From assembly GCA_037783545.1 (NCBI GenBank), contig JBBELK010000624.1, forward strand, positions 248,001 to 312,000: 64,000 nucleotides of DNA. The letters are read 5' to 3'. Position 1 is the stretch's first letter. Each line of letters starts with the position of its first letter. The notes under the pieces are model-generated. The model ran no database searches. It was not told the origin of the DNA and saw nothing but the letters and a program-made list of their open reading frames with translations. Positions 2,167 to 32,649 of the stretch are shown in pieces. Source of the DNA: Henricia sp. BOLD:AAB3569. Taxonomy: Eukaryota > Echinodermata > Asteroidea > Spinulosida > Echinasteridae. The translations under genes and the position numbers were made by a program.

Positions 2167-2170
2167 TTCA

Positions 2171-2710: not shown

Positions 2711-2984
2711 CACCCCACAAATACATACATAATTTGTAATAGAAACGTAAGGGCCATTCTCCGCTAAAGTGTTCAAGTTGGGAGTGACAATATTGGCGAA
2801 ATATTGACAGCAACGAAAAAACAAAATATGGCCAAAATCGTAAAGTGTATAATAGCTCCATAATATCAAACAAATTATTGGCATGGGTGATCTTTAACTC
2901 GTCTACCTAGTGTAAAAGTGGCACTAATGGGGCTTCATATTATCGCCGAACAAAAGGGTTTGTGAGTGCTGAACAACACTTTTA

Positions 2985-3328: not shown

Positions 3329-3447
3329 ATGGGGTCCATGCGGACATTGTGGGTACTTTGGTTAACTTTGCTATTGATGACTTATCCAGTGCTAGCAAAG
3401 GATAGGAAAAAGCGACAAAACCCGAACGCCGCAGAAGACAGTGCACA
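3329..3447 (+). CDS. Exon 1A: signal-peptide first exon of a secreted protein
   Basis: The ATG at 3329 has a favourable context (ACAATGG) and opens 39 codons plus two bases, ending at the donor GTAAGT (3448). The residues are a short N-terminus with one arginine, a hydrophobic core of about 14 residues (LWVLWLTLLLMTYPVL) and a likely signal peptidase site after Ala23. RKKR follows at residues 26-29, a furin-type basic site, so a six-residue propeptide may be removed. The split codon CA|G joins in frame to the exon at 25593. A nearly identical exon lies at 18743 (Pro32 here, Leu there). The two could be alternative first exons, or one may be silent. The protein family is not recognised. Confidence 0.8.
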
Positions 3448-3494
3448 GTAAGTAACGAATGTCAAGTTACTTCAGAAGTATCTCTACTTCTTAA

Positions 3495-4477
3495 ACGGCT
3501 AGAATTCCCCCATCCACATTTTTTTAGTTTTCCTGTTTATCATGGAGGTTTATGTTTCTACAACGCGATTACAACGTGTTTTCCGCCAAAAACCGACAGT
3601 ATTTGTTTAAAACGCAATTCAGTTCCGACCCTCTTCACCCGAAATTCTGAAACGCTCGAGGTCACTTGGTTTGTTTATAAACAGGGGCGATACGTCATCC
3701 TGAGAAACACACAAAACGGCCTGTGCAGTATTGAATGGAAAATATACGAAGTGTATGTTCATCATGCCTGTTTTGCCCAAAATACAAACGTGAAAACTCC
3801 TGATGTAAAACGACAATAATCTACTATTACCTTTTTTGTGAAAAAAAACGTAAAATTGTGGCTCACAATGAAGACGAGTCTTTTGAAGGAAACACTGGTG
3901 CATTTGCGACCGGTGTTTGTCACGGAACGAACAGCGGTCCGTGTACAGCAGTGGGAATGGTGCCTGCGGGCCGCGCCGTAGTTCCCACGTGTTTGAAATT
4001 GGCACACGGTATATGCACATCGACCGGTACAAGTTAGAATGAACGACTCATTTTTCTCTCTCTTCGTAATAAAAAAGGATCTTAGCTTCTGCTCTTTTTT
4101 TTCATGTCTGGTAAAACATACAACCACGCAACTACTGGGCATATCTCTGGCTTTTTGGACCAAAACAATTCTTCAAAAAACACCATCTAACAGAGACGGT
4201 TTTCCAATTTTTTTGCGTGTAAACGTATGGAGCTAACAATCGTGTTGACTTTTCTTTCTCAGGATTGCGTCACGGGGTCACGCGCATATCATGAATACCT
4301 AATGAGCGTTTCAGAAATCGCGAAAATCTCATTTTCGAAAAGCACACTTTTGCTTGCAATTTATCAACTTAAAACCGACAAATAAAAAATAATAAAAATC
4401 CACGTTGGCAAGAGGGATGTTTGGACTATCGAAAAAAGCCTAAATGCTGGATTTTCGTCAAGGGGGATTCTTCCTCT
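3495..4477. mobile_element. TTAA-target insertion in the intron after exon 1A
   Basis: Unit 3 of the array has an uninterrupted site (TTAA at 18902-18905) where this copy has TTAA at 3491-3494, 983 bases, then TTAA at 4478-4481. The ends are weakly inverted (both carry GAATCCCCC-like words 12 bases in). Two overlapping minus-strand frames of about 135 codons (3619-4032 and 3762-4163) lie inside. They have no recognisable motif and no splice support, so I do not call them genes. Confidence 0.8.
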
Positions 4478-4857
4478 TTAAACTTTTTTCTGGCCATTCT
4501 CCTTCAACGGGATCTTGGACTTGGCCTTGGTACACTACGTTTCCCCATGGAGGAGAAAAGACTTTTCCTTCCTCCATGGTTTCCCCTATCAGTATCAGTA
4601 TCACTACAGTATGATGAGTATCAACACTCTACGTCACACGGGCCAATTTCATAAAGCTGTTTAGCACAAAAATATGCTTAATAAATTACAACATTTAGTT
4701 GCTTTTTGCAAAAAATGTGTTAAGTAAAAATTGTAGACCTATTCTGTCGGTCGCCGCAACGTCACTTCCGGTAGGGCTGGAGTGAAAACCACAGTGTGCC
4801 CATGGTGACAAGCGAAGGAACAAAGCCGTTGTCTACGCAACACATACACGTATCTAA

Positions 4858-5442
4858 GGCCAATGAAATTAGATTACTAGTTTCTCGTCAGCGCCCGCAT
4901 GTGATTTTGACCCCGCACCAAACAATTTCATTATGCCAAAATTTAATTATTTTGCAAAAAAAAGGGAAAAATCAGATGCAAACAACTCCCAGGTGAAAAG
5001 TTTCCATTTGAGTTGTGCAGCTGCGATCTGTGTTTTGTAGCTTTTGTGTTTATATTCAAATATATTGCTCTTTCACAAACCAGACATCTCCCATAATTTT
5101 GTCATCTCAACTTGTTCCTTCAAACACAAGCTACCCGGTTTAACTCAATAAAATTGATACTGGCACCAAACTATTTCTAAATGGCAGTTCACGTACGTAT
5201 GTGTAAAGGTTGTATTTTTCCTTGATTAAATTAAGGCACAGGCTCGTCAGCAATGCACGCCCGCCAAATTCGTGTCACGAGATACGCAGCTCCATGTCTT
5301 TGCTATGGGGCTGCATATTTCGTGGCACGAATTTGGCGCGCGTGCATTGCTGACAAGCCTGTGCCTTTGAATAATGAAAAAAATCCCTCACCAAAATTTG
5401 ATAAATGGTTGACGAGTAACTAGTAATCTAATTTCATTGGCC
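4858..5442. mobile_element. DNA element with 30-bp TIR GGCCAATGAAATTAGATT
   Basis: The arms at about 4858-4890 and 5411-5442 are near-perfect inverted repeats beginning GGCCAATGAAATTAGATTAC. CTAAG occurs on both sides and may be the target duplication. A separate snap-back element (5235-5366) is nested inside. Confidence 0.7.
5235..5366. mobile_element. Snap-back MITE, GGCACAGGCTCGTCAGC family, copy 2
   Basis: About 130 bp whose two halves are reverse complements around a short loop (near 5300), starting GGCACAGGCTCGTCAGC. TTAA precedes it at 5231-5234. Related copies lie at 49061-49197 and 29925-30038. Confidence 0.85.
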
Positions 5443-8439
5443 TAAGCCACACAATATTCATCCGCAAAGTTACAATGAACACACCGCGTGCGCAAAATTA
5501 CAGCTTCCTATTGGTCGCTCGCCCACAGAGGGTGCTCTACCGGTACTTTGGCGCAGAGTAGTTTCTTCTCAAGGCGTTCTTACATACCGAAGCTATAGCC
5601 CACTGGTGATCATGAGCGCATTGCAAACATGATTTCTGTAATAATTTCATTTATACTGGACGAAACATGCTCATTTTGGTATTTTGTATTTCTAGTTCTG
5701 TTGAATAAAATGACTTTTAATTTATTAAACTGGAGTAATTTTAGTTTTTTTTTGTCACATACCTACTTTTTAAGCATTTATTAAGCAGTGTTCTCCACTG
5801 CTAAATATTTTGTCCGGGTGCGCTGAGCAGCGCCCTCACGTGGTGAACACTGATTTCCCGCATGAGGGCGCTGTTTAAAAGAAATGCATGCAACTGCCAT
5901 GGCCGTTATCGACTGCGGATTGGGTCGCCGATGCCATGGATATGCGTGGTAAGTGAACGATAATGACACCAATGGCTAGCGAATCATGTTTGGTGACTTT
6001 ACACCTAATTTGGAAATGACTTGGCTGTACTTTTGAAGTGTTTTTAGAGGGGGAAATGGATTATTTTTGTCCGGGCGGCCGAGTTTTTTGAACAGGCGTT
6101 AACGGTACCTCTGATGATTTTGTCCAGGACAAAACCGGTAGTGGAGAACGCTGTTAAGAAGGCTAAAAGTGACTCTTTGGCGCTAACTTTTGGATGGGAA
6201 GACGTCACTTTAAGTCGTTTGTCAAAAAATTTAATCGGTGACAATTGCAACTGTGTTGAAGTCTGTAATCTAGTTAGTTTTCATGTGTCAGAAATCTCAT
6301 GTATGGCTACAGTCAAAATAAAACTTTGAAAAAGATACTGGTATGGAGGTCATTCTCCTCGGTTTTTCCCAATGAGTCTTCTAAATAATTTTGGGTAAGA
6401 GATGAGAAGTTGATCAGAAATTTGTTTTTTTAAATGACTCTTCAAGCATTGTTAAGTGTAGATTAGATGGAAAAACCAAAGTTTGGGAGTGAGAAAATGT
6501 TAAAATGTTGTGAGGAAACACTTTTTTTGGTATAATTTTTGTATACATTGAACAAAGATTTTAAGGAAATTACCTCCTGGAATCAACACATTTATTGTAA
6601 TTTTAAGATATACTTCCCACTTGCACTTTTGTTCCAAAAATTGCCTTCAGTTAGTGCACAAGATAACCATTCACGCTCAGAAATGCAACATTTGCGACGG
6701 AAGTGTCAGTGAGAAGTATATCTTAGAATTGAATAAGCTATCGATTCAAATATATAAATTCACCCAAATCCGTGTTCAATGTATCGGCGCAGTGTAGTTT
6801 CTTGTCAAGGCGTTCTTATACTGAAGCTATTAGGAAATGCACCAAACCTCGAGTGGGATATTATTTAAATTACAAGATGTGATCACGTCCAGACAACAAA
6901 ATAGCTCCGGTTCCTGTCAGACCTACATGTAGCTTGTTGGCTCGCTAGTTATCATCGCAGAACTTTTAGGCAACGCGGCGGTGCTATAGGGCATGGGCAC
7001 AAGCTTTCATCAGCCTTTTAGAAGTATGGCGGAACAAAAGGAGAGAGCGCAATTTTATTTGGGTATGAATTTTTTTTACAATTGTATTTCTTTCCAAAAA
7101 CATGATTTACATGTTACAATTATGATACAGAGACAGAATTGTGAATAAAATAAATAAGTGCAAAGTGAAAAATGCAGTTATATTGCATATTATTCGATTT
7201 TATACCCACTTCAAAGTGCGCCCTCATATTGTGTCCGCCATACTTCAAAAAGGCTACTGTAATTGATGTGTAGCCAATATACGCTGATTTTTCAGACTTT
7301 TTAAAATTATAATTTGGACGAAACATGCACATTGTTTTTTGTGTTCTGTTAAAAAAAATGACTTTTAAGACACTGGGGTGATTTTAAATTTTGTTGTCTT
7401 TTTGGCTACCGGTACTTACAGATGGGGCGCTATCCACAATACGATCAATATTTTTAGGTGCCAATAAACAGTCGTCGTTGTTAGTGACATTGCCGGCCGA
7501 TCTCGACTCGCGATTGGGCGATGTCACTAAAAACAATAATGACCATGATATTTTATTTGCACACGTACATGACAATAGATGAGACATGTAGTGCAACAAA
7601 AACCCACATTTACTTCCTAAAGTTCATAGTGTCCCTAAGTACGGTACTTACTGAGATTTTAAACAAAAATTCAAAAAATCTGGCATTTTTGCTCCAGTAT
7701 TTACACTAGGCCTATACAAGTATCACTTTTTTTCAAATAATGAATTGATTTTGGTGTTCCAATTTTGTAGTTCAGAGAGCCTCACAGAAAGCTGGTTTTT
7801 TTTTACAATCATAATTGGGTCTACAGGCATAATTGTTTTGTTAACTTGTACAGTATGTATGTAATTTTATAGGCCTATACACATGTACTTGTATGTGTAC
7901 CTGTTGTGCTATTATCCTAGGAAAATGAATACTCAGTACCCAGGCCACTGGCTACTGTAACCATTCTTAGGCCAAACAAAATAAATGGTGTGTTTACGGT
8001 AACCTGACCTACCTGGAATTTTTGAGGCCAAATTGCCAACCTTAAACTTTTTATTGCCAATTTTCAAGTTGATAATTTTAAATGAGCACTATTTGCAATA
8101 ATTTCAGACGAACATAACATTGTCTACACTTGTACATGAACACGGTTAATAGTGTTAATAGTGAGTTTCAAACATTGCAAAACAACACGCAAATGCATGA
8201 ACTGAAATGTAAAACAAAAATTACAAAATAAAATTATTTTCCTACCTACCTACCTACCTGGATGTTTTTAGGCCGTTACCGTAAACGCACCATTTATTTT
8301 GGTGGTATACAGGCCTAATGCTTAGTTAGGGCCTACAATGTACATTACTTGCACAAAGTTTGCCAAGGCCATTGATCCAGCAGTGTGGTGTCCTTGGCTT
8401 TAAGCAGATTCACAGAAATATTCAGCTTACATTTACACA
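5443..8439. other. Intron sequence of array unit 1
   Basis: Mostly shared with unit 3 (22110-24124) and unit 2 (15699-16203). Reading frames here are short, broken and not conserved as coding between the copies. No exon is supported. Confidence 0.5.
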
Positions 8440-8443
8440 TTAA

Positions 8444-11053
8444 AGGGCCTGTGACATGCTAAACAACTTTGTGCCTAAGCTTTGCTTCATAATGACGGAT
8501 TACTTGTTCAGCAAGACCATGGAGGAAGGAAAGACAGGAGTTAGAACGAGGCACAGATCAAACATTCCATGTGTGTTACCGCGCTCATAAAACCAGCAGA
8601 TCAAAACCGCAAAATTCGCACCTCCCGGTCCGAGCTCCAACTCCTATAACAAGCTTATGACGTCACCGATCAAGCCTGGCATGGCTGCGCATGCGTGGTA
8701 ACGCATCTCTCGATCGGAGCGATCTGGTTCGAACCAGTTTTTTCTCACAGTACCATGCTCAAATTGGCTGAAATGTCGGATACGGCAAGCAGAAGATTTC
8801 AATCGACGATCGGGCAAAGTTTCGACGAACTTTATCCGACTTTAATACGAAATACGGCCCTGCAAAGGTGGTTGTTTTTAGAGCTGCTGTTTTCAAGGGT
8901 TTCTGCTGCAGATATATACAAGAAAATAACGCCAATTTCTAGGGTTTTTAGTGTATAAATCAACACAGACTGTGGCGTTTTTGTTGAGAAAAACACCTTA
9001 ATTTATATTTTGTTTAATGTCAAAGTTTTTTTTTAGTTTGCTATCTTATCTAGCATGCATGCTGATGAATAGTCTAGCCTGTAATTGTAGAAAATTCCCA
9101 AATACCGGCAATAAAATTTGTTAGCACTTTTTTTCTTCCCGTTAAGGATTTAGAAAAAGTCGCCTTTTTTAATATTAAAATCCTAATATTTTCATCAAAC
9201 CTTTACATCAATTTTACAGGTTATAAGATAAACCAATAAAGATAAACCATTGGTCAGATATGGATTTCGATCCAAAATTTAAATACAATGTAAACAAATT
9301 TTTTGCAAGTGATCAAATGAAATTTCCTAAACTTAAACATGTTCCTTTCGTTATACAGTACATTATGTAATATTTTATAATTGCTTTATAATGACAATTT
9401 AAAATTTACAAAATGTCCCAACTTCATTACAAAATGCAAACCACAGACACGATAGGCCTAATAAGTTATAACTTCCATTGTGCTAATAAAGACAGCCCCG
9501 GAAACAGTTCACAAGTAAAATTTCAACTCCAATATACTCCGATTTCTTGCTCTTCATCGTTTTCACTCCCAAGGAGGACTTTCAATGAGGTTCAACTGTA
9601 CTTCAATAAATACATGGAGCCATCCATGGGTAGGTCGACTTGTGTGTTGCCCCTTTTTTGCCTTCACTTGACCAGATACAATGTTGAGGGACGTCATCAT
9701 TTTTTTATTTTGCTCAGTGAAGTACTGTTCCGGCGAGTCGATCCTGGTTGAGAAAAAGAGAGGAAAAAAAATTGAGGCTCTCTTAAAAAAAAAACACTTC
9801 GGCCAGTCTCAGTGTGTTTTGTACACAAGGCAATGTACTCAATTCTTTCCAAAAAATGAAAAAGTACAAATAATTTACAACATTGATTGTAAAACTGCAT
9901 AAAATGCCAGGAAAAACGATCCACCACATTGTACTTTTGTTGTCGAGACACAACCCGGAAGTAAAACATCGCAATCACGCACGCGGAGAAAACATCCCTT
10001 TTCTCTGCTGCTCCCAATTGCTCCATGAAATGCCACGCACGAATCGAAAGAAGAATACCCGTCACATAAACCCCTCATTTTTTAACACTCGGAACAGCCC
10101 GGAACAGCCCCAAAAATACAAAAATATTATATCATATTTTCCCCAACCTTTCAGAGTAATCCACACTTAGGTTGGACGATCTTTGGTGAAATATTTCAGA
10201 AGTTTAGCGAAGTTTTATATCAATCGATCGGGAATTTTGTCGCGATTCTCGTGCTGTATATGTTGCAGGCACACATTGCACATAGTTGGACTGCGCATGC
10301 GAAAGAAGAAATCGTTTGTTCGTTCGTTATGGCCCAACTATCACGCACGAACGTTTCATTACTCCAGTATGCACAGTCATGCGGTAACACTGATCGGCAA
10401 CAAAGGGCTGTAATCCGGGTCGTAAAATCGATGGGCAGCAACGCGGCCGCATGGTTTTCTGCAGTCCAGCCAGAGGTGATAATTGGCTGTAATCGGATTA
10501 TCTGATAGTGGAGGGACCGTTCTAACTCCTGTCTTTCCTTCCTCCATGGCAAGACATACTATTGTTCGTTTGGATGTAAAATCAATAAAAGGTGGCCTTT
10601 TTCAACTTTGAAGATTTCATTGCAATAAATCACAGACAGGGCGCTGTTTTGAATGCATCACAAAAGAAAGACAGAAGGGAAAAGTTAAAAAAAAAACATA
10701 AGACTTCAAGTTGGACTTGTGGCAAATTGCTGCAGTTTCTACCCCCAGTTTTGTCATGGCTTACAGCAGGCAACATGTAAAACAAACTCAAACAGCCATG
10801 GATTACAAAAGTTTCAGGAAAATTTAGAAAAAAGTGGAATCTTTTGTGCACAGTTGAATGTAATTTTCCTGTGTTTGCCTCTTGTGACATCGTGACCTTG
10901 GTCATGAATATGCATATTTGCATTAGCATAAAAACTAAAAACCTTTGTTTTAACTCCCAAAGCAAGCCCCAAATAGGATTTTTATGACTTTAACTGAGTA
11001 GAGGGGTTTTAAAGCATAGATTTCATTGATAACAATCCTAAATAAGGGGCCCT
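8444..11053. mobile_element. 2.6-kb TTAA-target transposon, ends AGGGCC
   Basis: TTAA at 8440-8443 and at 11054-11057 bracket 2610 bases whose termini read AGGGCCTGTGACATG and, inverted, AGGGGCCCC-like. A second inverted pair sits inside (AAGACAGGAGTTAGAAC at 8531-8547 and its complement at 10522-10538). Its paralogous position in unit 2 holds a different element at the same TTAA (16208-16989). Several open frames of 60-120 codons occur on both strands, none with a recognisable transposase motif. It is either a decayed autonomous element or non-autonomous. Confidence 0.75.
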
Positions 11054-11984
11054 TTAAGTACTTGAACTGGTTGTACACATATTGCTAAAACCAGTGAAGT
11101 AGCCTACATGTGCATGAGGGATCTTGCTGGTTGCATACTGTGATCTGTGTATTTTAAAACTTGATGTTTATAAATAGCCCATTATTCTCCATCCCAAGAT
11201 CTCAGGGAATTTCCACTCTGCTAAGCGACGTAACAATACCCTGAGGAAATCCACGCAAATCTGTGGATTAAGCCGGCTGTTGTGTTCAGCCAACACACGC
11301 CCGAGTCATTTTGATGTAATTTAATCAATTCGGTCATGTTATGCCGAAAAGAAACGATTTCTATACTTTCCAGAAATTGTATTGAGTTCTGTTCCTTATG
11401 ACTGTCCCATTCCTACCAACATTTCCGGCGACAATCTTAATTTACTCCACAGTTTTAAAAAGTAATAACAGGGATGCATGCTGACCAAAGTGCATAAAAC
11501 GGATTCCCCTGTATGCTTTAAATAGCAGCCAATCCCCGATGCGGACAACGACCAGCATTACCGAGTACATGTATCACATGCATGCACGGTGTTTACAATC
11601 TGTGCGAGTTACATTTGAATGCCTGCAATGCACTGCCAAGCGTCCTGATTGGTCCAGAGAGGTGACAAGATTTCTGTCGCTTGTTCCCCAGCGAAATGGG
11701 GCCGGTTTCAACAGGGCCTCGGTACGCACGATCGGGGAGTGCGTTAAGAGGATGATTATTTTCATGCAAAATCCAAAGCAAAACGTTATTAAAATCTAGG
11801 CATACATTTAAGGCACAAACTTGATTGGAAAGTTTTGTAATTTACATAAGACTGCAAAAGTTTAGGCCAAGGAAAAAAAACCAAGATACATGATGTAAGT
11901 CTCCCACTTTAACACCCCAAATGTTGAGGCCTACTGTAGTGCAAAAAGAAGAAGTTGCTTTTTTGCTGTTTGTAACAGTCTAAT

Positions 11985-12506
11985 ATACAAATATTGACTG
12001 CGTCGAGTGGTATAGTAAAACTAGCCTCCCGAGGTGACCCACGGAGCATTCTATTTTCCCGAGGCGAAGCCGAGGGAAAATAGAATGCTCCGTGGGTCAC
12101 CAAGGGAGGCTAGTTTTACTATACCACGAGATAAAGCAGTCAATATTTGTTTTATGACACCTCTCCCACAGATTCTGCTTAATTTTGGCTTAAATAAAAA
12201 TGAAATCAGTTTTATCAATTGTTTTTGCATTCACTTTCTTACAGTGTCCAGCGCGTTCGTACAACTGGTAGCTGTGCGTGAAGTTGTTTTTGTTCGATCG
12301 CGCGCGTTACGCGTAATGCAGGCGTGTAGCGCCCACACACACACACGACCGATATCCGCGCGCGGGAGTTGCTAGGGGTATAGTACTTTTCGGAATGCAT
12401 GGTATAGTCTTTTGGAGCACTTGTACAAAGATAGCAAAATAGCCAACGTCACGTGACACGCTCTCGACCAACCACGATACAGAATCTGTGGGCGAGGTGT
12501 TATAAT
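11985..12506. mobile_element. Composite foldback insertion
   Basis: Absent from the paralogous site in unit 2 (near 17930). It has two inverted modules. The first is a long palindrome with arms at about 11986-12060 and 12074-12150 around the loop GAGGCGAAGCCGA. The second is an inverted pair at 12153-12176 and 12480-12503 (TGACACCTC...CAGATTCTG). TAAT-like flanks suggest a 3-4 base target duplication. Confidence 0.75.
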
Positions 12507-12589
12507 GTATACTATCCCACTGTTGAGAGTGAATGAGCCAATATATAGTTTCTTTCCAAGACAAAGCTAACAAATGAATCAACCGTTAA

Positions 12590-13097
12590 AGGCAGTATAC
12601 ATGATTGGTATCTCGAAAATCAGAAATGTTCACAGAATTTACACCTAACTGGCACATGATGACCGTAGAAAACTTCCCCTGAAATGGTTTTGTCTGAAGT
12701 GCTATAGTCTTTGAGAAATGAGTAAAACAATTAGTTTTCGTCTCATGAGACGAAAATTCAATTCGCCCCAAAACCATTTCGCCCAAGTGCCATTTCGCCC
12801 CAAACCACTTCGCCTGAGTGCCATTTCGCTCCAAATTACTTAGTCCAAACACTACATCACCCAAATGCCACTTCGCCCCAAAACCACTTCGTGCACAGGC
12901 TGTGGTTCAGGGCCAAATTATTCAGGGCGAAGTGGTTTTGGGGTGAAATGACTGTAAACCCTTTTTTGACTGTTTTCTCAAAAGTTAGACGAAGTACGGA
13001 GCTGGTTTTTGCTCAGGTTGGTTTTAATCATGCATATCTTCAATCACACAGGGGGATAAAACTATTTTTAACAGTTTATCAATCATGTATACTATCT
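12590..13097. mobile_element. TTAA-target MITE, AGGCAGTATACATGATTGG family, copy 1
   Basis: 508 bp between TTAA (12586-12589) and CTAA (13098-13101). The paralogous empty site in unit 2 has a single TTAA at 18488-18491, which confirms the target duplication. The interior carries a tandem run of the word CCATTTCGCCC about every 20-40 bases, then its inverse. The TTAA target fits the piggyBac or Kolobok superfamilies; no transposase is present. Confidence 0.9.
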
Positions 13098-13209
13098 CTA
13101 AGAGGTCACATGATTGTAAAATGATCAAGTGATGGGGAACTGCCCTGATCTGTGCCAGCTGGAAGCATGGTACCAAGCTAACACAGCCCCTGTAATAAAG
13201 TTATAAAAC

Positions 13210-13825
13210 AAGGCCAGTGGAGGTCATCGTTTTGCAATGTATAAGGTGTTGTTCACACATGATATCAAATCTGCTTGAAGAGGGTAATAAAAAGCTATGT
13301 GAATTAGCTAGAGTACAATTTGCTTCAAAATATTTATTGCAAAAAAAACGTAGGCCTAAACCTTTTTCACTGAAGCCTGCAGTGCTTTTTATTGTGGAGT
13401 ACTTTGACATTTTTTGGGAAAAAGTGAGTTGTTGAACAATCCGAAAATTAAAATGGTTGAAAGTTTTTAGGCTATACTACATGTACATGTAAGTATACTT
13501 TAATGAAACTCCCTTGGTGCAACTTTAAAAGCAGTTCATACACTGTGTAGGGGAAATGTTGCACAAAAAATTAAAATAGTTTAAACTTTTAAGCAAATTT
13601 AACATAATGTATAAACGATGCTACTCAAATGTATTGTATTTTGATTATTCTTGCAGATGAATGAAGTACTACTTTGGAATGTTAAAGGTACATTGTGCCC
13701 AATTACAGTGAAATCTCAGTCATGGACACCAGTTTTTGCAATCCACCTTCAGTTTTGTGTTAGTTGCATAAAATTTGAGAATAAGCGCACTTGGTCTGCT
13801 TTTGTGATGGAAAGGACAATATTTA
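13210..13825. other. Unassigned sequence after array unit 1
   Basis: AT-rich, without a second copy in the window and without exon-like frames flanked by splice sites. Confidence 0.3.
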
Positions 13826-14211
13826 CCCTTTTCCTACTATTAAAAACTGCTTAACCTGAAAATTTGCCGCCCTTAGTTAACCCTGAGTTCTTTTCCCCTA
13901 TGTTTCATTAACCTGGAGTTTCGCTAAGCCCGGAGTGAACTTGCCCTGGTCAGTAACGCGATGCGGTTTCCCACTGCACGCGGACACTCTTTACAATTAC
14001 AGAGGCCGATTACCTGTGGAACACTTAACCCTGCTTGGTTTCCCACTACAATGGTCACCCCGGGGTTCGGCCGTTAACCCAAATTTGTTGTCTTAACCCT
14101 GGGCTGAAAAGAGTAGTGGGAATTCAATGCTCGTGCCGCCCCGGGGTATCTCGGGGTTAAGGCTTGCCGTTAACCCCGAGATAACCCGGAGGTTTGGTAG
14201 TGGGAAAGGGG
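13826..14211. mobile_element. TTTTCCCACT/AACCCGGG-type MITE, copy 1
   Basis: The termini are CCCTTTTCCTACTAT and the complement of CCCTTTCCCACTACC. The interior is made of AACCCCGAGATAACCCGG-like words. A copy in opposite orientation lies at 56728-57184. Non-coding. Confidence 0.7.
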
Positions 14212-15241
14212 TATTTGATATCTGAAATAATTTTTAAAATTCACTGCCAGTTGGAGGGACTGAATTTTCTCATTGTGTACTTGTGCTGTGGAACCATTTG
14301 TCCCTGAGACCATGCTGGCTGAGACCAACCACCATTTACCTACTACCAGTACCAGGTTGTTTATTCTTCCCAGAGTGTCATGATTGGGTCCTTCTGTAAC
14401 ATCTTGTACTGTAATTACTGCCATTTCAATAAGCTGCTCTGAATGACCTTACACAGTTTGCAATGTGAAAGTTATGGAACTAGCCTTTATGACCTTTCCA
14501 GCAGTTTGAATGACCCAATACAGTTTAGTACAGTACTGCCAAAACTTGTCATATTTTTTAATATAAAAGAGTTCTTGGGACTTTGCAGATTTAAGGTGAA
14601 GTCGTGAACCTTACTACCCAGTATCAGAAACTACAAATGGTGGAGAACTGTAGTATTTGATTTTTATCCTTGTTATACACAGATCAGTGTACTAACGGTG
14701 CTTATCGAGGTTCAACTGTGAATTTAAAAACACTGGAGAAATAATAAAAATGTAGGTATGACTTGAGGCTATGCATGGTAGAAGGTAAACGATTTGCGGT
14801 TGCACCGTGCAAAATATCTCTTTTTAAAACGTGTGGTTACTTCCCAAGAGCATCAGGAAAGCCATCAAAATCCACAAACAACAAGTACCCCAAGACAATG
14901 ACTTCAACATCAGCAACATTTGACACTCCCTTTACCAACCAGACCGATGGGTCCTCTCTATACCCAAGGTCCTCTCCCTACAGCAGCTACTGCAACAATA
15001 GCATGCATTGATAAACACAGCAACCAGTGCATTTCTAAATTAGAGGCCAGTGGTGCCTGCATGGCCCCACCAAGATTAGTTCTCATAAAAATAACAAGTT
15101 ACAGACTTCTCGATAAATATATATTATGTACATATGTAATCTGAATTTAATTATCCTTACTGTTTGCATTAAAATTTGTCTGAAATCCCTCTTTGAGTTC
15201 ATTCTAGTGTGTCAATACTTAACGAGTTTTGTTTCCATATA
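14212..15241. other. Unassigned stretch
   Basis: No exon, repeat partner or motif recognised. A frame of 82 codons at 14763-15011 lacks splice or domain support. Confidence 0.3.
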
Positions 15242-15500
15242 AGGGAGAGTGGGGTTAGTTGGAACAGTGGGTATGTTGAAACATTGATATTTTCTTTCAC
15301 GGCTGTAGTTATTTTTATGAAATCCTGCCACTCATATGTTGCTATTAGCAACAGCTATCCACTATATTTTCCATAGCACATGTGTTACAACCCTATTAAA
15401 GTGAGAAAGGAATGTTTGTTTTTTACCTTCCGAGTAATTTTTTCACCATTCAGAAATGTTGCATTATGCTAATGATGTTCATATTTTAAGGTATAGTACA
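15242..15500 (+). mobile_element. Fragment of the GGGTTAGTTGGAAC element, 5' part
   Basis: Matches the reverse complement of 34500-34757. The matching 3' part of the same family begins at 24125 in the same orientation, so units 2 and 3 of the array sit between two halves of this element family. Confidence 0.75.
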
Positions 15501-16207
15501 GTGAGTTGTCGAAGTGCGCCAAGTTATAGGAGACATTATACACCAACCTTTTTGGGATTGACAATGTCCCGTTTTCTTCCAATGAATAGTATTTTGGGAA
15601 GGTATTTTATATGATTTTTAATAGGTTAGAGCAAAATCCATGGAGAAAACGGGTACCTGTACGTGTGAAGTCAGCCGTGAGGAAGTGTGTATTAATTCGA
15701 CGAAACATGCACATTTTGGTATTTTACATGTATGATTTTGTTTTTAGTGTTCTGTTAAATAAAATGACTTTTAAGACACTGGGATGATTTTAAATTTTGT
15801 TGTCTTTTTGGCTACCGGTACTTACAGATGGGGCGCTATCCACAATCAAAGACTGCGATACGATTAATATTTTTAGGCGCCATTAAACAGTCGTCGTTGT
15901 TAGTGACATTGCCGGCCGATCTCGACTCGCGATCGGGCGATGTTAACTTGTACGTACGTACATGTATGTAATTTTGTACATGTACATGTACTTGTAAGTG
16001 TTGAGCTATCCTAGGAAAATGAATATTACTCAGTACCCAGGCCACTGGCTACTATAACCATTCTTATGGTGGTATACAAGCCTAATGCTTAGTTATAGGG
16101 CCTACAATGTACATTACTTGCACAAAGTTTGCCAAGGCCATTTATCCAGCAGTGTGGTGTCCTTGGCTTTAAGCAGATTACCATAAAATATTCAGCTTAC
16201 ACATTAA

Positions 16208-16989
16208 AGGTACACACGGGCCTACTGTTTACATGATTTAGAGATGTAGCAGCATTGACAATACTTTTTTGAAAATATCCCGTAATTTACTAAAGAAGTG
16301 CAAAATTAACAATTAAAAACAGTTAAAAGACGGGTTATACGCTTTACCAGCCGTTTCAACCACGCGCGAGCCTCACGACTTTGTCACAAACGATTCGCTC
16401 TTCTCCTACTCAGGATATCTCCAATTTTCTGCTCACGATTTCACTGGACAGCCCGGACGACCGAATAGGAATTGCCGTTTTCTTTTGCCGGGAGTTGGCA
16501 TCATGTTTTGTCTTCACAAACGTACACCGGAGCAACACACCCGGCCGTGTGTGGAGTCGGGCTATTTGCCGTGCTGCCCGGGGCAAATATCCTACACTCC
16601 ACGGTAGCCTGCCGTAGCACGCGCTCGCTCCCGTTCTCCGGACTCTGGAAACAAACATTTATGTTCGAATTTTCGTACATATGTTCAACTTTGTTTCATA
16701 CAATATCTTATAAATATTGGGGGTAAATCAGAGTTAAAATTGGTGCAGTTCTGCAGTAGAAAACATTCATGCGGCTGGACACAAAACTAACTCGCAAGAC
16801 CATGTGGCTTTTCGGAACCAGAATCTGGTTCCGAAAAGTCACGTGACCTTGATTTTTTGAAAAATGCTCAAACGGCCAAATTTGACGGCGTCTTTTCAGG
16901 ATATATCTAATTTACTCTGAAAAGCGCTTCAGAATAATGTATGGGTCTATTTAAAGCCCAAAATATCCCAACAAAGCCGGTGTGTTCCT
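16208..16989 (+). mobile_element. TTAA-target element, AGGTACACACCGGCC family, copy 1
   Basis: TTAA at 16204-16207 and 16990-16993. The ends are AGGTACACACGGGCC and the complement AGGAACACACCGGC. The centre holds a hairpin in which a CTTTTCGGAACC arm faces its complement (about 16796-16848). Further copies: 26616-27434, 57804-59283 and, inverted, 31724-32467. A reading frame of about 40 codons recurs in three copies, but I attribute this to sequence identity rather than to coding. Confidence 0.9.
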
Positions 16990-17860
16990 TTAAGTACTTG
17001 AACTGGTTGTACACATAGGTGTAGTGCTAAAACCAGTGAAGTAGCCTACATGTGCATGAGGGATCTTGCTACATGTAGTTGCATACTGTGATCTGTGTAT
17101 TTTAAAATTCTGCACCTTGACGTTTGTAAATAGCCCACTATTCTCCATCCCGAGATCAGGTAATTTCCACTCTGCTAAGCGACATTACAATACCCTGAGG
17201 AAATCCACGCAAATCTGTGGAGTAAGCCAGCTGTTGTGTTCAGCCAACACACGCCCGAGTCATTTTGATGTAATTTAATCAATTCGGTCATGTTATGCCG
17301 AAAAGAAACGATTTCTATACTTTCCAGAAATTGTATTGAGTTCTGTTCCTTATGACTGTCCCATTCCTACCAACATTTCCGGCGACGATCTTAATTAATA
17401 ACAGGGATGCATGCTGACCAAAGTGAATGGAACAGATTCTCCTGTATGCTTTAAATAGCAGCCAATCGCCGATGCGGACAACGGCCAGCATTACCGAGTA
17501 CATGTATCACATGCATGCACGGTGTTTACAATCTGTGCGAGTTACATTTGAATGCCTGCAATGCACTGTCAAGTGTCCTGATTGGTCCAGAGAGGCGACA
17601 AGATTTCTGTTGCTTGTTCCCCAGCGAAATGGGGCCGGTTTCAACAGGGCCTCGGTACGCATGATCGGGGAGTGCGTTTGAGGGGCACTGTTTTAAGAGG
17701 ATGATTATTTTCATGCAAAACGTTATTAAAATCTAGGCATACATGTATTTAAGGCACAAACTTGATTGGAAAGTTTTGTAATTTACATAAGACTGCAAAA
17801 GTTTAGGCCAAGGAAACAAACCAAGATACATGATGTAAGTCTCCCACTTTAACACCCCAA

Positions 17861-18438
17861 ATGTTGAGGCCTACTGTAGTGCAAAAAGAAAAAGTTGCTT
17901 TTTTGCTGTTTGTAACAGTCTAATGTATACAGATCCCACTGTTGAGAGTGAATGAGCCAATATAAGGCCTTTTCCCACTAGAGCTTTTAACCCGGGTTAA
18001 ACTCAACCCGGGGCGAGCCCCGCGACCGCCCCGGGTTGAAACGCAAATTTTCAACCCCGCGATCAACCCCTCATCATTTCACACTTGTTTCGCTCAACCC
18101 GCTTTTATCTCGCCCCGGGGCGAGTTCAACCCCGAGATGAACAGTGAAGATTCACACTTGTGCAAGTGTGAACAGGCCTACTACCGTTTTCAACCCGGGG
18201 CGAGCGTTTCAACCCGGGGCGAAAGATTTCAACCCTGGTCCCGAGCAGGGTTGAGTTCAACCCGGGTTGAAAGCAATCTCGGGGTTGGCGCGGGGTTGAA
18301 ATTTCTCAAGTGTTAATCGTCGCTTATTTCAACCCCGCGTCAACCCCGAGATGTTGAGGCCTACTGTAGTGAAAAAAGAAGTTGCTTTTTTGCTGCTTGT
18401 AACAGTCTAATGTATACAGATCCCACTGTTGAGAGTGA
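17861..18438 (+). mobile_element. AACCCGGG-type element between 90-bp direct repeats
   Basis: The element (17964-18350) starts AAGGCCTTTTCCCACTAG and is built of CAACCCCGGGGCGAG words. It lacks the matching right terminus and stops at CCCCGAG. The flanking stretch 17861-17951 is repeated at 18351-18438, while unit 1 has it once. A 90-base direct repeat is far longer than a normal target duplication. Confidence 0.75.
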
Positions 18439-18589
18439 AAAGCCCTATAGTTTCTTTCCAAGACAAAGCTAACAAATGAATGAACTGTTAAAAGGTCACA
18501 TGAGCCATTGTAAAATGATCAAGTTATGGGGAACCGCCCTGATCTGTGCCAGCTGGAAGCTGGTACCAAGCTAACACAGCCCCTGTAAT

Positions 18590-18742
18590 AAAGTTATAAA
18601 ACGTCAACAACCGGAACCACACAGCACCAGGTACACGTACGTACGTGTGAAGTCGGTCTTCGAAAAGCAACGGCTCATGAACACCGTTGCTAGCTTCAGT
18701 TTCATTCACTGACTGACGTTTGTGGACGTTAGAGGTGTTACA
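18590..18742 (+). promoter_or_regulatory. Putative promoter and 5' UTR of exon 1B
   Basis: The unit 2/unit 3 junction creates TTATAAAAC at 18594-18602, a TATA-like word about 145 bases before the exon 1B ATG. From 18603 the sequence follows the exon 1A leader with a short deletion. Function is inferred only from position. Confidence 0.3.
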
Positions 18743-18861
18743 ATGGGGTCCATGCGGACATTGTGGGTACTTTGGTTAACTTTGCTATTGATGACTTATC
18801 CAGTGCTAGCAAAGGATAGGAAAAAGCGACAAAACCTGAACGCTGCAGAAGACAGTGCACA
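18743..18861 (+). CDS. Exon 1B: duplicate signal-peptide first exon
   Basis: Same length, same start context and same donor (GTAAGT at 18862) as exon 1A. The 39 encoded residues are identical except Leu32 in place of Pro32. Signal core, Ala23 cleavage site and RKKR basic site are retained. It is the copy nearer to exon 2 (25593) and splices to it in frame (CA|G). The near absence of coding change, against visible indels in the flanks, suggests recent duplication or retained function in both copies. Which copy is used cannot be told from the sequence. Confidence 0.8.
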
Positions 18862-19071
18862 GTAAGTAACGAATGTTAAGTTACTTCAGAAGTATCCCTA
18901 CTTAAACTTTTTCTGGACATTCTCCTTTAACAGGGCCTTGGACTTGGCCTTAGTACACTACATGTACGTTTCCCCTATCAGTATCACTACAGTATGATGA
19001 GTATCAACACTCCGTCACACGGGCCAATTTCATAAAGCTGTTTAGCAGAAAAATTTGCTTAAAAACATTTA

Positions 19072-21297
19072 CCGTAATTTTCGGAATATAAGCCGCGGCT
19101 TATACGTTGATTTTGCCAAAAAAAAGGTTCCCGGCGGCTTATAAACCGGGCGGCTTATACGCCGAGCTCTAAAGATAAAAATCATGATATGCTCATATAC
19201 ATTATGTAATGTGGTAAAATAGTTCTATCAATCTTTTACGGGAATGTTTTATTGTCAAAAAACGATGTTGAAGGCCGTCGCACGCGCACGAAAAGGTGTG
19301 CAATTTTTCCAGGTGCAGAGGGTGTACTAATCTTCGTTGGTGACCCATACATCGATGTGACACAGCACAAGCGCGGGCAACCAGTTCGCCATCGGACCGC
19401 CATCAGTCGTGAGTACTCGTCCAACGCCAAACAAATCGTTTGGTGCGTCTGTTCCTTCCGTGTTTTCTTCATTTCTTTACTTTTAGTTGGCGTTGTTTTA
19501 AAATCCAAAGAGTTCTGTGTTTGTCATTGTCTGTGTGTTTTAGATGGATCATTACAAGTAATTTTAATTAACGATGTTTTTCCAACGATGTACAGTCACT
19601 TTGCCCATGGACGAAGCCTCCATGCTTTGCCCAACTTGAGCCCCTTCGCCCAAAAGCCATTCCGCCAAGCGGCATACGTGTACGTACGTCTGCAGGCGCA
19701 GGCGGGCAAACGGTCCCTATTTTAATAAGCCTTTTCGGTATCTCGCGCGCGGTGGCGAGGTCAAAGGTAAATTTGGAACACGACGCCGCCATAGTCATTC
19801 ACCGCCATTGATACAATGGGGGTGAATGAACTATATAGCGGCGTCGTGCACAAAAATATGGGGCGGACGCAAATGCGAGAAATCATCGGGAATACCGGTA
19901 CCAAGCAAAAGACGATAGATCTATGTAGCATTCCGCTGAATTGCCGCTGAATTACAAATATTAATATCAATCACCCAATCCCCATGAAGCCCCTTTTATG
20001 TCAGTTGCAATGTTCTTTTTCAAGTAATTTTGAATGATGTATAAAGTGAATCAACATAGAATGATCTATTGAGATAACCGAATTCGGGAAAAAAGAAGGC
20101 ATATCGTTTGCACAGCCTTGGTATACTCCGCTCAAGACGCCCATTGATGACCATCGGCTTCAGTTTTTTGCCGCTGGCCGTGCAGGCAAGGACCACCGTG
20201 AAGCTGGTTTTCTTATTTATAAACTCTTTTTGCAAAACAAATGGAGAGGCCCCATGAACCGTCCAATTATTGATGTTGCAGCTTCGGTCTAAACCACCGT
20301 CCATCTGGTCCAGTACAATGTCTAATTCTTTGTCACTGTCATGTCCTTTGCGTTTTTAGTTTAATCGTGATGGACCCAAACGCATGACAAATGCAATGTA
20401 GTGGCAGTACAATACGGAAGCAATCAAACATAAAAGTTTGGCATATTTTATTTTGGCCGGTGAGATCAAAATCGCCAAGTCACCCATGTGCATTGAAAAT
20501 AGCCAATCGCAATGCGCGTAATAGAGAGACTAGGCCGGCTATTATCGTACATGCATAGCATATGCGTCGGGCCCGGGCGAAAGCAGTGTACAATTTGTAC
20601 ACGTGGGCTGCGTTCCACTATGCAAACGTTTAACAATGTGCGCGTATTTGGAACGAAGCCCTGCTTTCACTTACCGTGTTTGTGCATGGCCTGTCGGCCT
20701 GGTGCACTGCCGTGTTGCCGCCGCTGGAGAATCCAGCGAATATCTTGATGGCTTGCGGCCTTCGATCGTCATCGATGGCTTCTAATATACTGGGTAAAAC
20801 TTAATATACTCTCCTTTATTTTTTGGAGATTTCTTATTATGCACATTCAAAGGCATTTTAAAAATATGCCAAGTTACATGTACTTTATCTATTTACAAAA
20901 ACTAAAACAAGATTAGCCTACTTTGAGTGCATTGCACCTTGCTATACTTATTATAAACATGTAACGCCTTGAATTCCGATAAAGCTTCTTGATTTCAATA
21001 AGGTTTTCTCTTGAGTGTGCTGTCATCAAAACAACCTGGACCACAAAGCTCTCTCTGATTTGAGGCGACATGCCGTGCCGACAGAGAGTGTGACTACTGC
21101 AGTGTGCGGTCGCGCGCACGTGGCCCGCGGTAAGGCACTTACGGCGGCAGTTCTTTATATATTGTGATCGATCTGTGGCCGACAAAATGGTGCGGCTAAT
21201 AAGCCGGGCGGCTTATACGCCGACGGTGAATCTTGTTTCTGGAATTTTCGGGCGTCGCGGCTTATACCCCGGGCGGCTTATATTCCGAAAATTACGG
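19072..21297 (-). mobile_element. Pogo-like Tc1/mariner element, TIR CCGTAATTTTCGGAATATAA
   Basis: 2226 bp with inverted ends CCGTAATTTTCGGAATATAA flanked by TA (19070-19071 and 21298-21299). The paralogous empty site in unit 1 has a single TA (4696-4697), confirming a TA target duplication. The sub-terminal words GGCGGCTTATAC and GCCGCGGCTTATAC are further inverted repeats. A transposase fragment is on the minus strand (20020-20304). A short inverted module (19785-19848) sits inside. Confidence 0.9.
20020..20340 (-). pseudogene. DDE transposase fragment (pogo/Tigger type)
   Basis: The minus-strand frame contains, in order, LDQMDGG, NWTVHGAS, TSFTVVLACTASGKKLKPMV and further residues. That layout is typical of the DDE_1 core of pogo-like transposases: an MDET-like stretch, a TV..G turn, then the TVVLA..ADGKKLPPMVI strand. 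Here the usual MDET reads QMDG and the frame ends soon after, so the enzyme is broken. An N-terminal helix-turn-helix region was not located. A minus-strand exon-like frame with a GTAAGT donor lies near 20655-20770 and could be its remnant, but this is weak. Confidence 0.65.
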
Positions 21298-21999
21298 TAG
21301 TTGCTTTTTGCAAAAAAATGTGTTAAGTAAAAATTGTAGAGCTATTCTGTCAGTCGCCGCAACGTCACTTCTGGTAGGGCTGGAGTGAAAACCACAGTGT
21401 GCCAATGGTGGCAAGCGAAGGAACAAAGCCGTTGTCTACGCAACACGTACCGGTACACGTATCTAAGCATGAACGAATTTGTTTTCACTCCAGCATGTCC
21501 AGTCACACGGTGATATGCCCGTATACAAAGGCATTTGACACCGGGTCCCAAATGTGCCAGGATGTGCGACATACAGAATATAAACTTTAATCACTAACTT
21601 GATACTAGCCTACGATTTTATAAAGCAAAATTTGTTGCTGTTCAGCTTTATGAAATTGGCCCCTTGACGTCTTCATTGCATTGTGACAAAATCAAATGCA
21701 ATTAAAACGTCCGATCTTACTTTCAAATAGCTGAAAGTTACTTTTTATAGAAATCACGTGGCACCACAACCAACTTTTGAGACGTAATCGGTGTTTCCCG
21801 ATTGAGCTTTATCAGGCATGCTATTCAAGTACTACTAAAACAAAAGGACCAGTGGGGAAGTTTAACATGTATTACATTGCCTTACTTGTTGGGAAATTGA
21901 ATTTGAAGTCTTTTTAAGTCGTCATCCCCATTTGCTCAATCAAGTTTATTTGATATTGACCTCGTTTCCTAAAATTTGTTTTTCTTCAACTTGGTACAC

Positions 22000-24017
22000 T
22001 TTTACGGGGAAGCCGACAGAAGCTCACGAGATTAGAACTGTTTGAAACTTTTGCAGAGAGAAACGACGGTTGCAACTGCAGGAAGAAATGACCGAATGTC
22101 CTAATTCCACACAATATTCATCCGCAAAGTTACAATGTACACACCGCGTGCGCAAAATTACAGCTTCCTATTGGTCGCTCGCCCACAAAGGGTGGTCTAC
22201 TGGTACTTTGGCGCAGAGTAGTTTCTTCTCAAGGCGTTCTTACATACCGAAGCTATAGCCCACTGGTGATCATGAGCGCATTGCAAACATGATTTTGGCA
22301 ATAATTTCATTTATACTGGACGAAACATGCTCATTTTGGTATTTTGTATTTCTAGTTCTATTGAATAAAATGACTTTTATTAAACTGGAGTGATGTTTGT
22401 TTGTTGTCACATACCTACTTTTTAAGCATTTATTAAGCAGTGTTCTCCACTGCTAAATAGTTTGTCCGGGCGCGCTGAGCAGCGCCCTTACGCGGTGAAC
22501 ACTGATTTCCCGCGTGAGGGCGCTGTTTAAAACATGCATGCAACTGCCATGGCCGTTATCGACCGCGGATTAGGTCGCCGATGCCATAGATATGGTAAGT
22601 GAACGATAATGACACCAGTGGCTAGCGAATCATGTTTGGTGACTTTACACCTAATTTTGAAATGACTTGGCTGTACTTTTAAAGTGTTTTTAGAGGGGGA
22701 AATGGATTATTTTTGACCGGGCGAAAAATTTGTGTACGGGCGCTAACGGTACCTCTGATGATTTTGTCCCGGCGGCGCGCCCGGACAAAACCGGTAGTGG
22801 AGAACGCTGTTAAGAAGGCTAAAAGTGACTCTTTGGCGTTAACTTTTGGATGGGAAGAGGTTTGTCAAAAAATGATGGGTGACAATTGCATCTGTTTTGA
22901 AGTCTGTAATCTCGTTAGTTTACATGTGTCAGAAATCTCACGTATGGCTACAGTCAAAATCAAACTTTGAAAAACATACTGGTATGGAGGTCATTCTCCT
23001 CTCAAGAGTTTTGTGGAATGATCGGTTTTTCCCAATGAGTCTTCTAAATAATTTTGGGTAAGAGATGAGAAGTTGATCAGAAATTTGTTTTTTTAAATGA
23101 CTCATCAAGCATTGTTAAGTGTAGATTAGATGGAAAAACCAAAGTTTGGGAGTGAGAAAATTTTAAAATTTTGTGAGGAAACACTTTTTTTGGTATTTTA
23201 AGGAAATTACCTCCTGGAATCAACACATAATGTTATTTTAAGATATACTTCCCACTTGCACTTTTGTTGCAAATGTTGCTTTTCTGTAGAAAAATCACAT
23301 TTTCTTCTTAAAAAATTGCCTTCAGTTAGTGCACAAGATAACCATTCACGAGCGCGCGCAGCGCCCTCTGTTGTCGCGCTTACGCACAGACCGCTGGCCA
23401 TGTCAATTCTTTCCGTTGGCATTGCCATTCATCACATGCCCACAAAAGTTATCATGGTGTACATTCAGTTGCTCTACTTTGGCACAGTGTAGTTTCTTGT
23501 CAAGGCGTTCTTATACCAAAGCTATTGGGAAATGCACCAAACCTCGAGTTGGATATTATTTCAATTACTAGATGTGATCACGTCCAGACAACAAAATAGC
23601 TCCGGTTCCTGTCAGACCTACATGTAGCTTGTTGGCTCGCTGGTTATTATCGCAGAACTTTTAGGCAACGCGGCGGTGCTAGGGCATGGCCACAAGCTTT
23701 CATCAGCCTTTTAGAAGTATGGCGGAACAAAAGGAGAGAGCGCAATTTTATTTGGGTATACATTTTTTTAACAATTGTATTTCTTTCCAAAAACATGATT
23801 TACATGTTACAATTATGATACAGAGACAGAATTGTGAATAAAATAAATAAGTGCAAAGTGAAAAATGCAGTTATAATGCATATTATTCAATTTTATACCC
23901 ACTTCAAAGTGCGCCCTCATATTGTGTCCGCCATACTTCAAAAAGGCTACTGTAAATGATGTGTAGCCAATTCACGCCGAATTTTCAAACGTTTTAAAAA
24001 ATAATAATTTCATTTGT
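22000..24017. other. Intron sequence of array unit 3
   Basis: Paralogous to 5443-7316 with small indels. No coding conservation between the two copies. Confidence 0.5.
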
Positions 24018-30830: not shown

Positions 30831-31723
30831 ATGTACATGTAGGCGATGCGCGACGCAGCTCATTCGAACTGGGCCGGGCTGGCCCGCATTCGGAATCGGG
30901 CTGTGAACACAGGCCTGACGTCCGCGGGCACGTGAAAAAACTGTGCATGCTTTGTTTGGTAGGGCTACTGTACATGTACCTTTGTTTTCAACTCGTAATC
31001 TCAGAGAGTCGTGGGAGTCTTCCAACCGACTGTTGTAAATGTCTATGTCTTAGATAGCCGTTTGCAGAACCGGGCAATCAACTGTACGTACCGTACGTCG
31101 TATGCGAGCACTGTACTTTTATACTGTGCTGTGGTTCGCGCGCTGTAAACGTTTTTTCTCGTGTACGGTCGACATTCGAACTCGGGCCACAATCGAACTT
31201 GGGCCGCACCCGGCCGAATTCAAGCCGTAAACAAATCCAGATTGGGTTCATGATGCGCGCGATAAGCGTGCGCGGCCTCGATGTGTGGGGTGGAAAGTCG
31301 AGGGGGTGGGGTGGGGGTCGAGGGGGTTTTAGAACAACCCATAAAGGGGTAAAAAAATAAAGGCGATGTACACAGAATTTAGGTTTTAGGTAGGAACAAT
31401 AAGTTTTTATTTTTTTATTGATTTTTGAGTAAAAAGATACATGTAGGTTCTGCATGATTTTCTAGGTTGGGGTGGGTAATAGAAAACACAGCTTTTTTTT
31501 CTTGGCCTAATTTAACGCTGGAGTCTCAAGTCAAGTCATTTGAGGTTGGAGTCTCAAGTTACACGTAAGTCAAGTCAGTGAAAATCGAGACTTAAGTTGT
31601 GCCAGATGTGGATTTAGGCTTACTTCAAGGACATGCTAATTTGAGCCAAGCATTCCTGCAGTCTGGAATCCAACATGTAATTGACTGTTAAGCAGGGCTA
31701 ACAGTAACAGTTACCTGGGTTAA

Positions 31724-32467
31724 AGGAACACACCTGCTTTGTTGGGCTATTTTGGGCTCGAAATAAACCCGTACATTATTCTGAACCGCTCTCCAGAGTA
31801 AATTAGATATCAAAATTTGGCCGTTTTTTTTTCATTTTCCCCAAATTCAAGGTCACATGACTTTTTGGAACCAGATTTTCAGCCGTAGAAACCAGCGCGA
31901 AGTGCGAGTTGCTTTTGTCATTCACGGTTGGTTTCTCTTCTTGTTGAAAAATAATGTCCTACGAACACTATGTACATACTGTACCGTATTTTCCAATTTG
32001 TACACAAATCTGCCAGCAGATTTCATAAGAAGGATTTCTGGGTGTTGATTTTCGTGTCTTTGCTTCGCGTTCGCGGCGATAAATAATATCAGAAGAAAAA
32101 AACAGCATAGGACCACTGAGGGCGCTAAAAATACCAAAACGTTGCGTTCGAGTTGTTTCCTCGAGTCAGCTCTGACCTCGGGGATCATGCAAGGTGTGAT
32201 AAGTCGGGGAAAACAAGGAATCGAGGTTAATCAAGTGTCGACCCATATCGAACGCCACCTTTATTTACAAACACATGATACATAATACATGTACATCGCG
32301 ACAGCTGGTAAAGCGTATAGCCCAACATTTGTCTCTTTTGTTAATTTGAAACATTTCTAGTTAATTACTTGACATTTTGAAAATATGTTTTCACAACTAC
32401 CATCGAAAAATTATTGCCAAAGGTGCTAGATTGCTACGTTATGGAAACAGTAAGCCGGTGTGTCCCT
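31724..32467 (-). mobile_element. AGGTACACACCGGCC family, inverted copy
   Basis: TTAA at 31720-31723 and 32468-32471. Read from the left it starts with the other terminus (AGGAACACACCTGCTTTG). The interior is partly replaced relative to the other copies. Confidence 0.85.
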
Positions 32468-32649
32468 TTAAGGTGGCATTTTAGCCCTGATGACCTGTGC
32501 TCTGTACGTAATCTCAAGGAAATAAAACTTTTCAAAAGTGGACAAATATCAATGAGTCTGGGAAATCTGGATGAAGTGAAAAACCGTAGACCTTCTGCTT
32601 AATTAATGTGCAGACAACCATACCAATTAAGCTACATGTAGGGGACAAA

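Follow-up and report, generated by a model that had tools for sequence, protein, structure and literature searches.

Can a single short target site be occupied in turn by transposable elements that are unrelated to each other? The question is raised by a stretch of 64,000 nucleotides from Henricia sp. (the window, on contig JBBELK010000624.1, C624 in Table 1), in which two units of a degraded tandem duplication, Y1 and Y2, carry different elements, E1 and E2, at the same TTAA. The initial annotation had stated that the two units are paralogous and share both flanks around this TTAA, and the coordinates and the alignment bear this out. The order is ACACA-TTAA-E1-TTAA-GTACTTGAAC in Y1 and ACACA-TTAA-E2-TTAA-GTACTTGAAC in Y2. 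When the elements are removed, the flanks of both units join unbroken as TTACACATTAAGTACTTGAACTGG, and are identical over the 7 bases that precede the TTAA and the 24 that follow it. Over longer distances, positions 8289-8446 against 16057-16210 and 11051-11992 against 16987-17934 give 89% identity, gaps counted (substitutions for each flank are listed in Table 1), and a match on both sides of the site cannot be chance.

The interiors of E1 and E2 are no more similar than shuffled sequences, with a Smith-Waterman score of 25.0 against a shuffle mean of 23.5 and 59 of 200 shuffles reaching the observed score. It is clear that, as had been claimed, homologous flanks here enclose two elements, E1 and E2, that are unrelated and sit at exactly the same nucleotide, and these directly observed parts of the account, as distinct from the whole chain of events weighed below, we regard as close to certain. 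The initial annotation had itself raised the possibility that the two derive by deletion or rearrangement from a single ancestor. Both start with TTAAAGG, a motif that is also present at an end of E3, a third element of this type in Y1, but their similarity is restricted to the ends and each of them belongs to a dispersed family of its own, and we consider a common origin practically negligible.

A second contig (C162) is, from position 2103287 onwards, collinear with the window, at 99.9% over window positions 1-825, 97.8% over 1103-6678, 99.1% over 6676-8517 and 96.5% over 10549-13989. We read this stretch as the other allele of the window, and the assembly seems to hold both haplotypes. The number of Y units is unlike between them, with two in the window (array span 3245-24124) and three on C162, where the TTAA in question is occupied by E1 in Y1', by E2 in Ym and by E2 in Y2'. 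Among the units, E1 is thus found at the site only in Y1, in both haplotypes. In our searches of the genome DNA the best 40 candidates were scored, out of 4,541 for E2, 2,024 for the right flank and 1,319 for E1; five of the best 40 right-flank candidates cover the unit-specific first flank bases, and these are the five units. That the units, or one of the two occupants, are products of mis-assembly is very improbable. Such errors might be suspected in an assembly that seemingly contains both haplotypes and in which two further contigs (C8 and C258) carry an inverted doubled E2-E1 junction, but E1 at Y1 and E2 at Y2 were each found on two contigs, which are separate and differ in their private changes.

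The occupant of Y1 had been described as a 2.6-kb AGGGCC element. The AGGGCC and TTAA ends are as described, but it is not a single element: E1 itself is about 570 bp long and has a transposon of 2,031 bp inside. This nested transposon is flanked by a 7-bp duplication, GCAAGAC, at 8511-8517 and 10549-10555, and one base of each of its 32-bp inverted repeats belongs to the duplication. On the C162 haplotype E1 has a single GCAAGAC and no insert, which shows that the 2.6-kb insert of Y1 is composite and that the nested transposon is present in one haplotype only. The two open reading frames of the nested transposon that were tested had no match in Pfam. A THAP-like reading of a frame in E1 was discarded, as it concerned a 32-residue fragment across the nested insert with no Pfam match at E up to 1. 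The 0.78-kb element reported for Y2 was found as such, with E2 measuring 782 bp and having a TTAA on each side.

Both E1 and E2 are dispersed families in which no gene is recognised; their termini are 5'-AGG, and TTAA stands at their ends. Left ends of E1 occur 2,679 times in the genome (up to one mismatch; control 0), and TTAA was present at both ends in 19 of the 20 copies inspected, one of which is Y1' itself while two share flanks. The other 19 copies are 0.9-1.9% from the E1 consensus, compared with 1.7% for Y1 and 1.6% for Y1', but they are a best-scoring sample, and E1 may look younger as a family than it is. E2-type ends were counted 7,450 times (18 letters, up to one mismatch; control 1), and 14 of 15 E2 copies fetched from elsewhere have TTAA at both ends, the alignment of the fifteenth having stopped short. 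Here 18 copies outside the array are 1.9-6.8% from the consensus and the three array copies 5.2-5.5%; these compared copies are likewise a best-scoring sample, and the E2 of Ym was not among the best 40 of the E2 search.

The E2 copies in Ym, Y2 and Y2' are one insertion, since they have in common a 25-bp deletion whose junction occurs at three places only in the genome (up to three mismatches), namely in these units, and since a tree built from 21 copies of E2 places them together (support 0.945; stem of 0.0062, with tips of about 0.015-0.019). They also share four further substitutions, each present in at most one of the 18 other copies. An earlier dating of E2 from the window copies only, with a private branch of 4.6%, was replaced after closer relatives had been found. 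Most simply, the deletion would have arisen in place, before Ym and Y2 separated, and if the stem accrued in place, E2 would have been at the site before that separation.

Did Y1 once carry E2 as well? Serial occupation would imply that E2 already stood there at the separation of the three units, that the Y1 lineage lost it exactly, with one TTAA left behind, and that E1 took this TTAA in the Y1 lineage after the arrival of E2; later, on one haplotype, another transposon would have inserted in E1. We hold this whole chain, including the loss of E2 from Y1, tentatively, at just short of an even chance. Had E2 arrived only after Y1 branched off, the largest distances would be expected for Y1, and the flank distances show otherwise: with one cluster masked they are 2.5% for Y1-Ym, 3.4% for Y1-Y2 and 3.2% for Ym-Y2, the other between-unit pairs being at 3.7-4.1%. 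Since Y1 is not the most distant unit, the distances lean slightly towards a loss of E2 from Y1. The units split almost together, with E2 perhaps present at the site when they did so.

The competing explanation is that the two families hit the site independently, E2 entering the lineage from which Ym and Y2 both descend, or one allele of a site not yet duplicated, and E1 a Y1 lineage that never had E2. In a variant, unequal exchange between E2-bearing and empty alleles would give the same pattern, and no excision is required. Together these two scenarios carry somewhat less than an even chance. An argument in their favour is that coincidence at one TTAA is not very rare: with 17 TTAA in the shared Y1 flank, two insertions in Y1 (E1 and E3) and one in Y2, it has a chance of 2/17 (12%). 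Descent of the units from different alleles is also plausible, as alleles are nearly as different (2.1% for both Y1-Y1' and Y2-Y2') as units (2.5-4.1%). The E3 site, moreover, gives an example of a TTAA filled in Y1 (and Y1') and empty in both Ym and Y2 (18488-18491 in Y2). On the other side, the flank distances give no sign of Y1 lying outside Ym and Y2. Under a clock and with the full E2 stem, independent arrival should leave an excess of about 15.5 Y1-only over Y2-only substitutions. The counts of fixed substitutions in which Y1 alone differs from Ym and Y2, and of those in which Y2 alone differs from Ym and Y1, are 6 and 9, 7 and 8, or 8 and 8, where the three pairs of counts represent alternative alignments of a 6-bp indel at 11080 and of a far-left flank stretch. 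The predicted excess is absent, with P values of 0.007, 0.02 and 0.03 under the clock.

A number of points weigh against serial occupation. Exact loss costs one event more than independent insertion, and a genome search for the pattern of the empty site, allowing up to three mismatches, gave 0 matches, so that no empty unit was seen. The clock test depends on the E2 stem, and with a stem of 0.1% independent insertion is not rejected (P 0.16-0.38); the four stem substitutions were compared with only 18 other copies, and the site counts were made partly by hand. About 300 bp of the right flank (around 11190-11491) belong to a dispersed repeat, of which 25 copies were fetched from the genome, matching Y1 at 91-95% identity; a search of the window with Rfam at gathering thresholds gave no match for it. 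When these 25 copies serve as outgroup, nine unit-level changes can be polarised, two derived in Y1, four in Y2 and three in Ym. None is common to two units, so that these changes support no particular order of splitting. Moreover, Y1' alone matches the dispersed repeat at 11420 and 11449, and there are clustered private changes in Y1' and Y2', for which reason gene conversion may be distorting the flank distances.

Two other lines of evidence on the order of the units were set aside. A maximum-likelihood tree with eight dispersed-repeat outgroups places Y2 outside Y1 and Ym with 93% ultrafast bootstrap, but it was given little weight because the outgroups cover the repeat only and because the directly polarised sites give no support. 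The Y1-like indels of Ym are no proof of sisterhood, because Ym has four Y1-like states for which a polarity can be given, and these are ancestral.

The TTAA might also have changed its occupant without a new transposition, if an element left and the break was repaired by copying from a sister unit or from an ectopic element (gene conversion). The unit alleles do look mosaic, since in Ym the distant part of the left flank resembles Y2 and the near flanks are mixed, and E1, E2 and E3 share TTAAAGG at an end. However, the E2 of Ym differs by 3.5% from that of Y2 and by 2.9% from that of Y2', which is about the level of the flanks and speaks against a recent copy from Y2, and E1 in Y1 has the ends of its family with a TTAA on each side, as transposition gives. 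We consider such a template swap improbable. Ym as a simple crossover product, with the left side from Y2 and the right side from Y1, was rejected as well, the near-flank markers being mixed and the product not clean.

Immediately left of the TTAA, Y1 and Y1' have 6 additional bases (within 8427-8439) that Ym, Y2 and Y2' do not have. They could possibly be a repair scar, but we did not count them as a scar of excision, as indels are common in these flanks.

Returning to serial occupation, the private branch of E1 in Y1 and Y1' (0.016) is shorter than the path from the E2 stem to the tip (about 0.023), and E1 therefore probably arrived after E2, by a small margin. Two routes may be envisaged: E1 could have inserted into the emptied TTAA, or its entry into the TTAA on one side of E2 could have preceded the departure of E2. 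The first half of the latter route is seen at other loci, where E1- and E2-type ends adjoin across a single TTAA.

Repeated occupation of TTAA elsewhere in the genome, which the initial annotation had proposed to survey, does occur. Exact matches to a pattern in which an E1 end and an E2-type end face each other with a single TTAA between them number 14, rising to 24 when one mismatch is allowed and to 56 when two are, against 1 for a reversed-pattern control at the last threshold. About 3.7 such junctions are expected from random choice of TTAA, with the number of TTAA in the genome extrapolated from the 462 in the window; note that the junction pattern uses 10 letters of E2 and the count of E2 ends 18 letters, which are different filters. 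Flanks were fetched for eight of the 14 exact junctions and include three same-locus pairs, so that five of the eight are distinct and the total is at most 11 of 14. At most junction loci the ends were matched with the interiors unread. At the junction on contig C376 the reading covered the two ends of E1 as well as those of an E2 (122 and 69 bp, 92-93%), again with the interiors unread, and the outer target of that E2 is TTCA; in a tandem second copy (C376:929506) the similarity stops before the TTAA, making it uninformative on the allelic state. At a further locus (L008) a single TTAA adjoins both an E2 and an E3. Since E1/E2-type and E2/E3 ends are found across one TTAA, a TTAA that already has an occupant can still accept a second family, and this is a concrete first step for replacement.

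The E2-TTAA-E1 junction is present twice in opposite orientation, about 27 kb apart on C8 and about 18 kb apart on C258, possibly through inverted duplication or as palindromes of the assembly. At four of the eight first-fetched E2 loci (L004, L006, L007 and L008) E3-type elements are found no farther than about 0.8 kb from E2, and it is possible that TTAA elements are clustered.

A more general proposal would be that TTAA elements prefer a TTAA already flanking other elements, so that fixed "sockets" turn over between unrelated families. A newcomer would enter the duplicated TTAA of the occupant, the older element would later exit exactly, and the window would represent the end state of a process of which the E1-TTAA-E2 loci are intermediates. 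We regard this generalisation as unlikely at present.

Insertions at exactly the same site are often treated as once-only, homoplasy-free markers. Here unrelated families stand at one TTAA within a tandem array, and ends of the E1 and E2 types share a TTAA at the 14 exact places described above. If exact loss and re-entry are true, the presence or absence of a TTAA element would be an unreliable marker, and an assembly with seemingly both haplotypes would let the rates of exact loss and of re-use be measured.

Table 1 Coordinates of the units, elements and flanks. Positions are those of the window unless a contig is named.
Feature	Position	Strand	Remarks
Analysed window	C624:248001-312000	forward	assembly size 740.7 Mb
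Unit X1	3245-7401		part of degraded tandem duplication
Unit Y1	7332-13209		part of degraded tandem duplication
Unit Y2	15738-18602		part of degraded tandem duplication
Unit X2	18657-24124		part of degraded tandem duplication
Left flank of site, Y1	8289..8439	+	paralogous to 16057-16203, 4.7% substitutions
Left TTAA of E1	8440..8443		read directly
E1 left part, AGGGCC end, through first GCAAGAC	8444..8517	+	matches E1 family; 19 other copies aligned
Nested transposon, 2,031 bp	8518..10548		32-bp inverted repeats, 8517-8548 and 10518-10549
E1 right part, GGCCCT end, including second GCAAGAC	10549..11053	+	matches E1 family
Right TTAA of E1	11054..11057		read directly
Right flank of site, Y1	11058..11985	+	paralogous to 16994-17928, 3.0% substitutions
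E3, third TTAA-type element, Y1	12586..13101	+	left TTAA 12586-12589, right CTAA 13098-13101
Left flank of site, Y2	16057..16203	+	aligned with Y1 left flank
Left TTAA of E2	16204..16207		read directly
E2, 782 bp, Y2	16208..16989	+	ends AGGTACACAC / GTGTGTTCCT; 25-bp internal deletion
Right TTAA of E2	16990..16993		read directly
Right flank of site, Y2	16994..17928	+	aligned with Y1 right flank
E2 family member, other TTAA	26612..27438	+	similarity to E2
Divergent E2-like member, TTAA-flanked	31720..32471	-	similarity mainly at both ends
E2 family member, other TTAA	57800..59287	+	own internal insert of about 655 bp
E2 in Ym	C162 2115412-2116182		
E2 in Y2'	C162 2122217-2122986		

Other small elements mark the array and its surroundings. 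Unit X1 contains at 4539-4585 an element of 33 bp (4546-4578, CATGGAGGA...TCCTCCATG) with a 7-bp duplication, GTTTCCC. X2 lacks this element, which shares its ends with the transposon inside E1 and resembles a minimal version of it. Both have CA/TG ends and 7-bp duplications, and may be P-like elements. Y1 has a stretch of about 510 bp without counterpart in Y2 that includes foldback arms of 59 bp, 93% complementary (12007-12127); a different stretch of 473 bp takes its place in Y2. Mutually related palindromic elements are located at 5217-5383 (arms 84% complementary), 29939-30055 and 49049-49199, and their ends at 30040 and 49201 read TTAAAGG from the outside in.

With respect to known systems, the ends and the target make it plausible that E1 and E2 are Kolobok-like, with putative membership. 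The superfamily is described as having ends of the form 5'-RR ... YY-3' (PMC9587614); E1, E2 and E3 all start with AG and finish with CT, and the TTAA duplication typical of Kolobok is seen in the E1 and E2 copies counted above and, for E3, from the empty TTAA. The same duplication and 5'-RR ends are a likeness to the T2 miniature inverted-repeat transposable elements (MITEs), for which the terminal motif AGGRR is given (PMC6004289). An assignment to T2-MITE was rejected, because E1 (AGGGC) and the left end of E2 (AGGTA) miss this motif and only the right end of E2 (AGGAA or AGGGA) fits. The terminal inverted repeat of E1, at 6 bp only, is a further difference from these groups as described in the two papers. 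Nor are they MITEs of the piggyBac type, for which ends of 5'-CC[C/T]T are reported from the coral CMITEs (PMC2872659), as the ends of E1 and E2 start with AGG. The coral elements are nevertheless similar, being MITEs that have TTAA on either side and alleles both with and without the insertion, and a later element is described there as having targeted a TTAA that lay between two repeats; the present case differs from that description in its AGG ends and in a re-used TTAA between two different families.

The closest precedent is the report on Stowaway MITEs in intron 4 of the beta-amylase gene in the Triticeae (Mason-Gamer 2007, PMC1925063), according to which multiple insertions and losses occurred at one TA. 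Most of the elements at that site are said to be closer to copies elsewhere than to one another, one of them is described as inserted at the TA of an earlier, excised element, and six insertions of two PIF elements at one site of maize r are cited. The two cases are alike in that distinct elements moved into or out of one target. As presented in that report, the Stowaway case concerns a TA, putative excision footprints and a comparison across species, whereas the present one concerns a TTAA and two unrelated families, compared across tandem paralogues and haplotypes, and showed no footprint. Re-use of the same site is itself already known; what the present locus adds, with no claim that re-use of a TTAA between unrelated families is absent from print, is a new case for TTAA elements with an informative array and a second haplotype.

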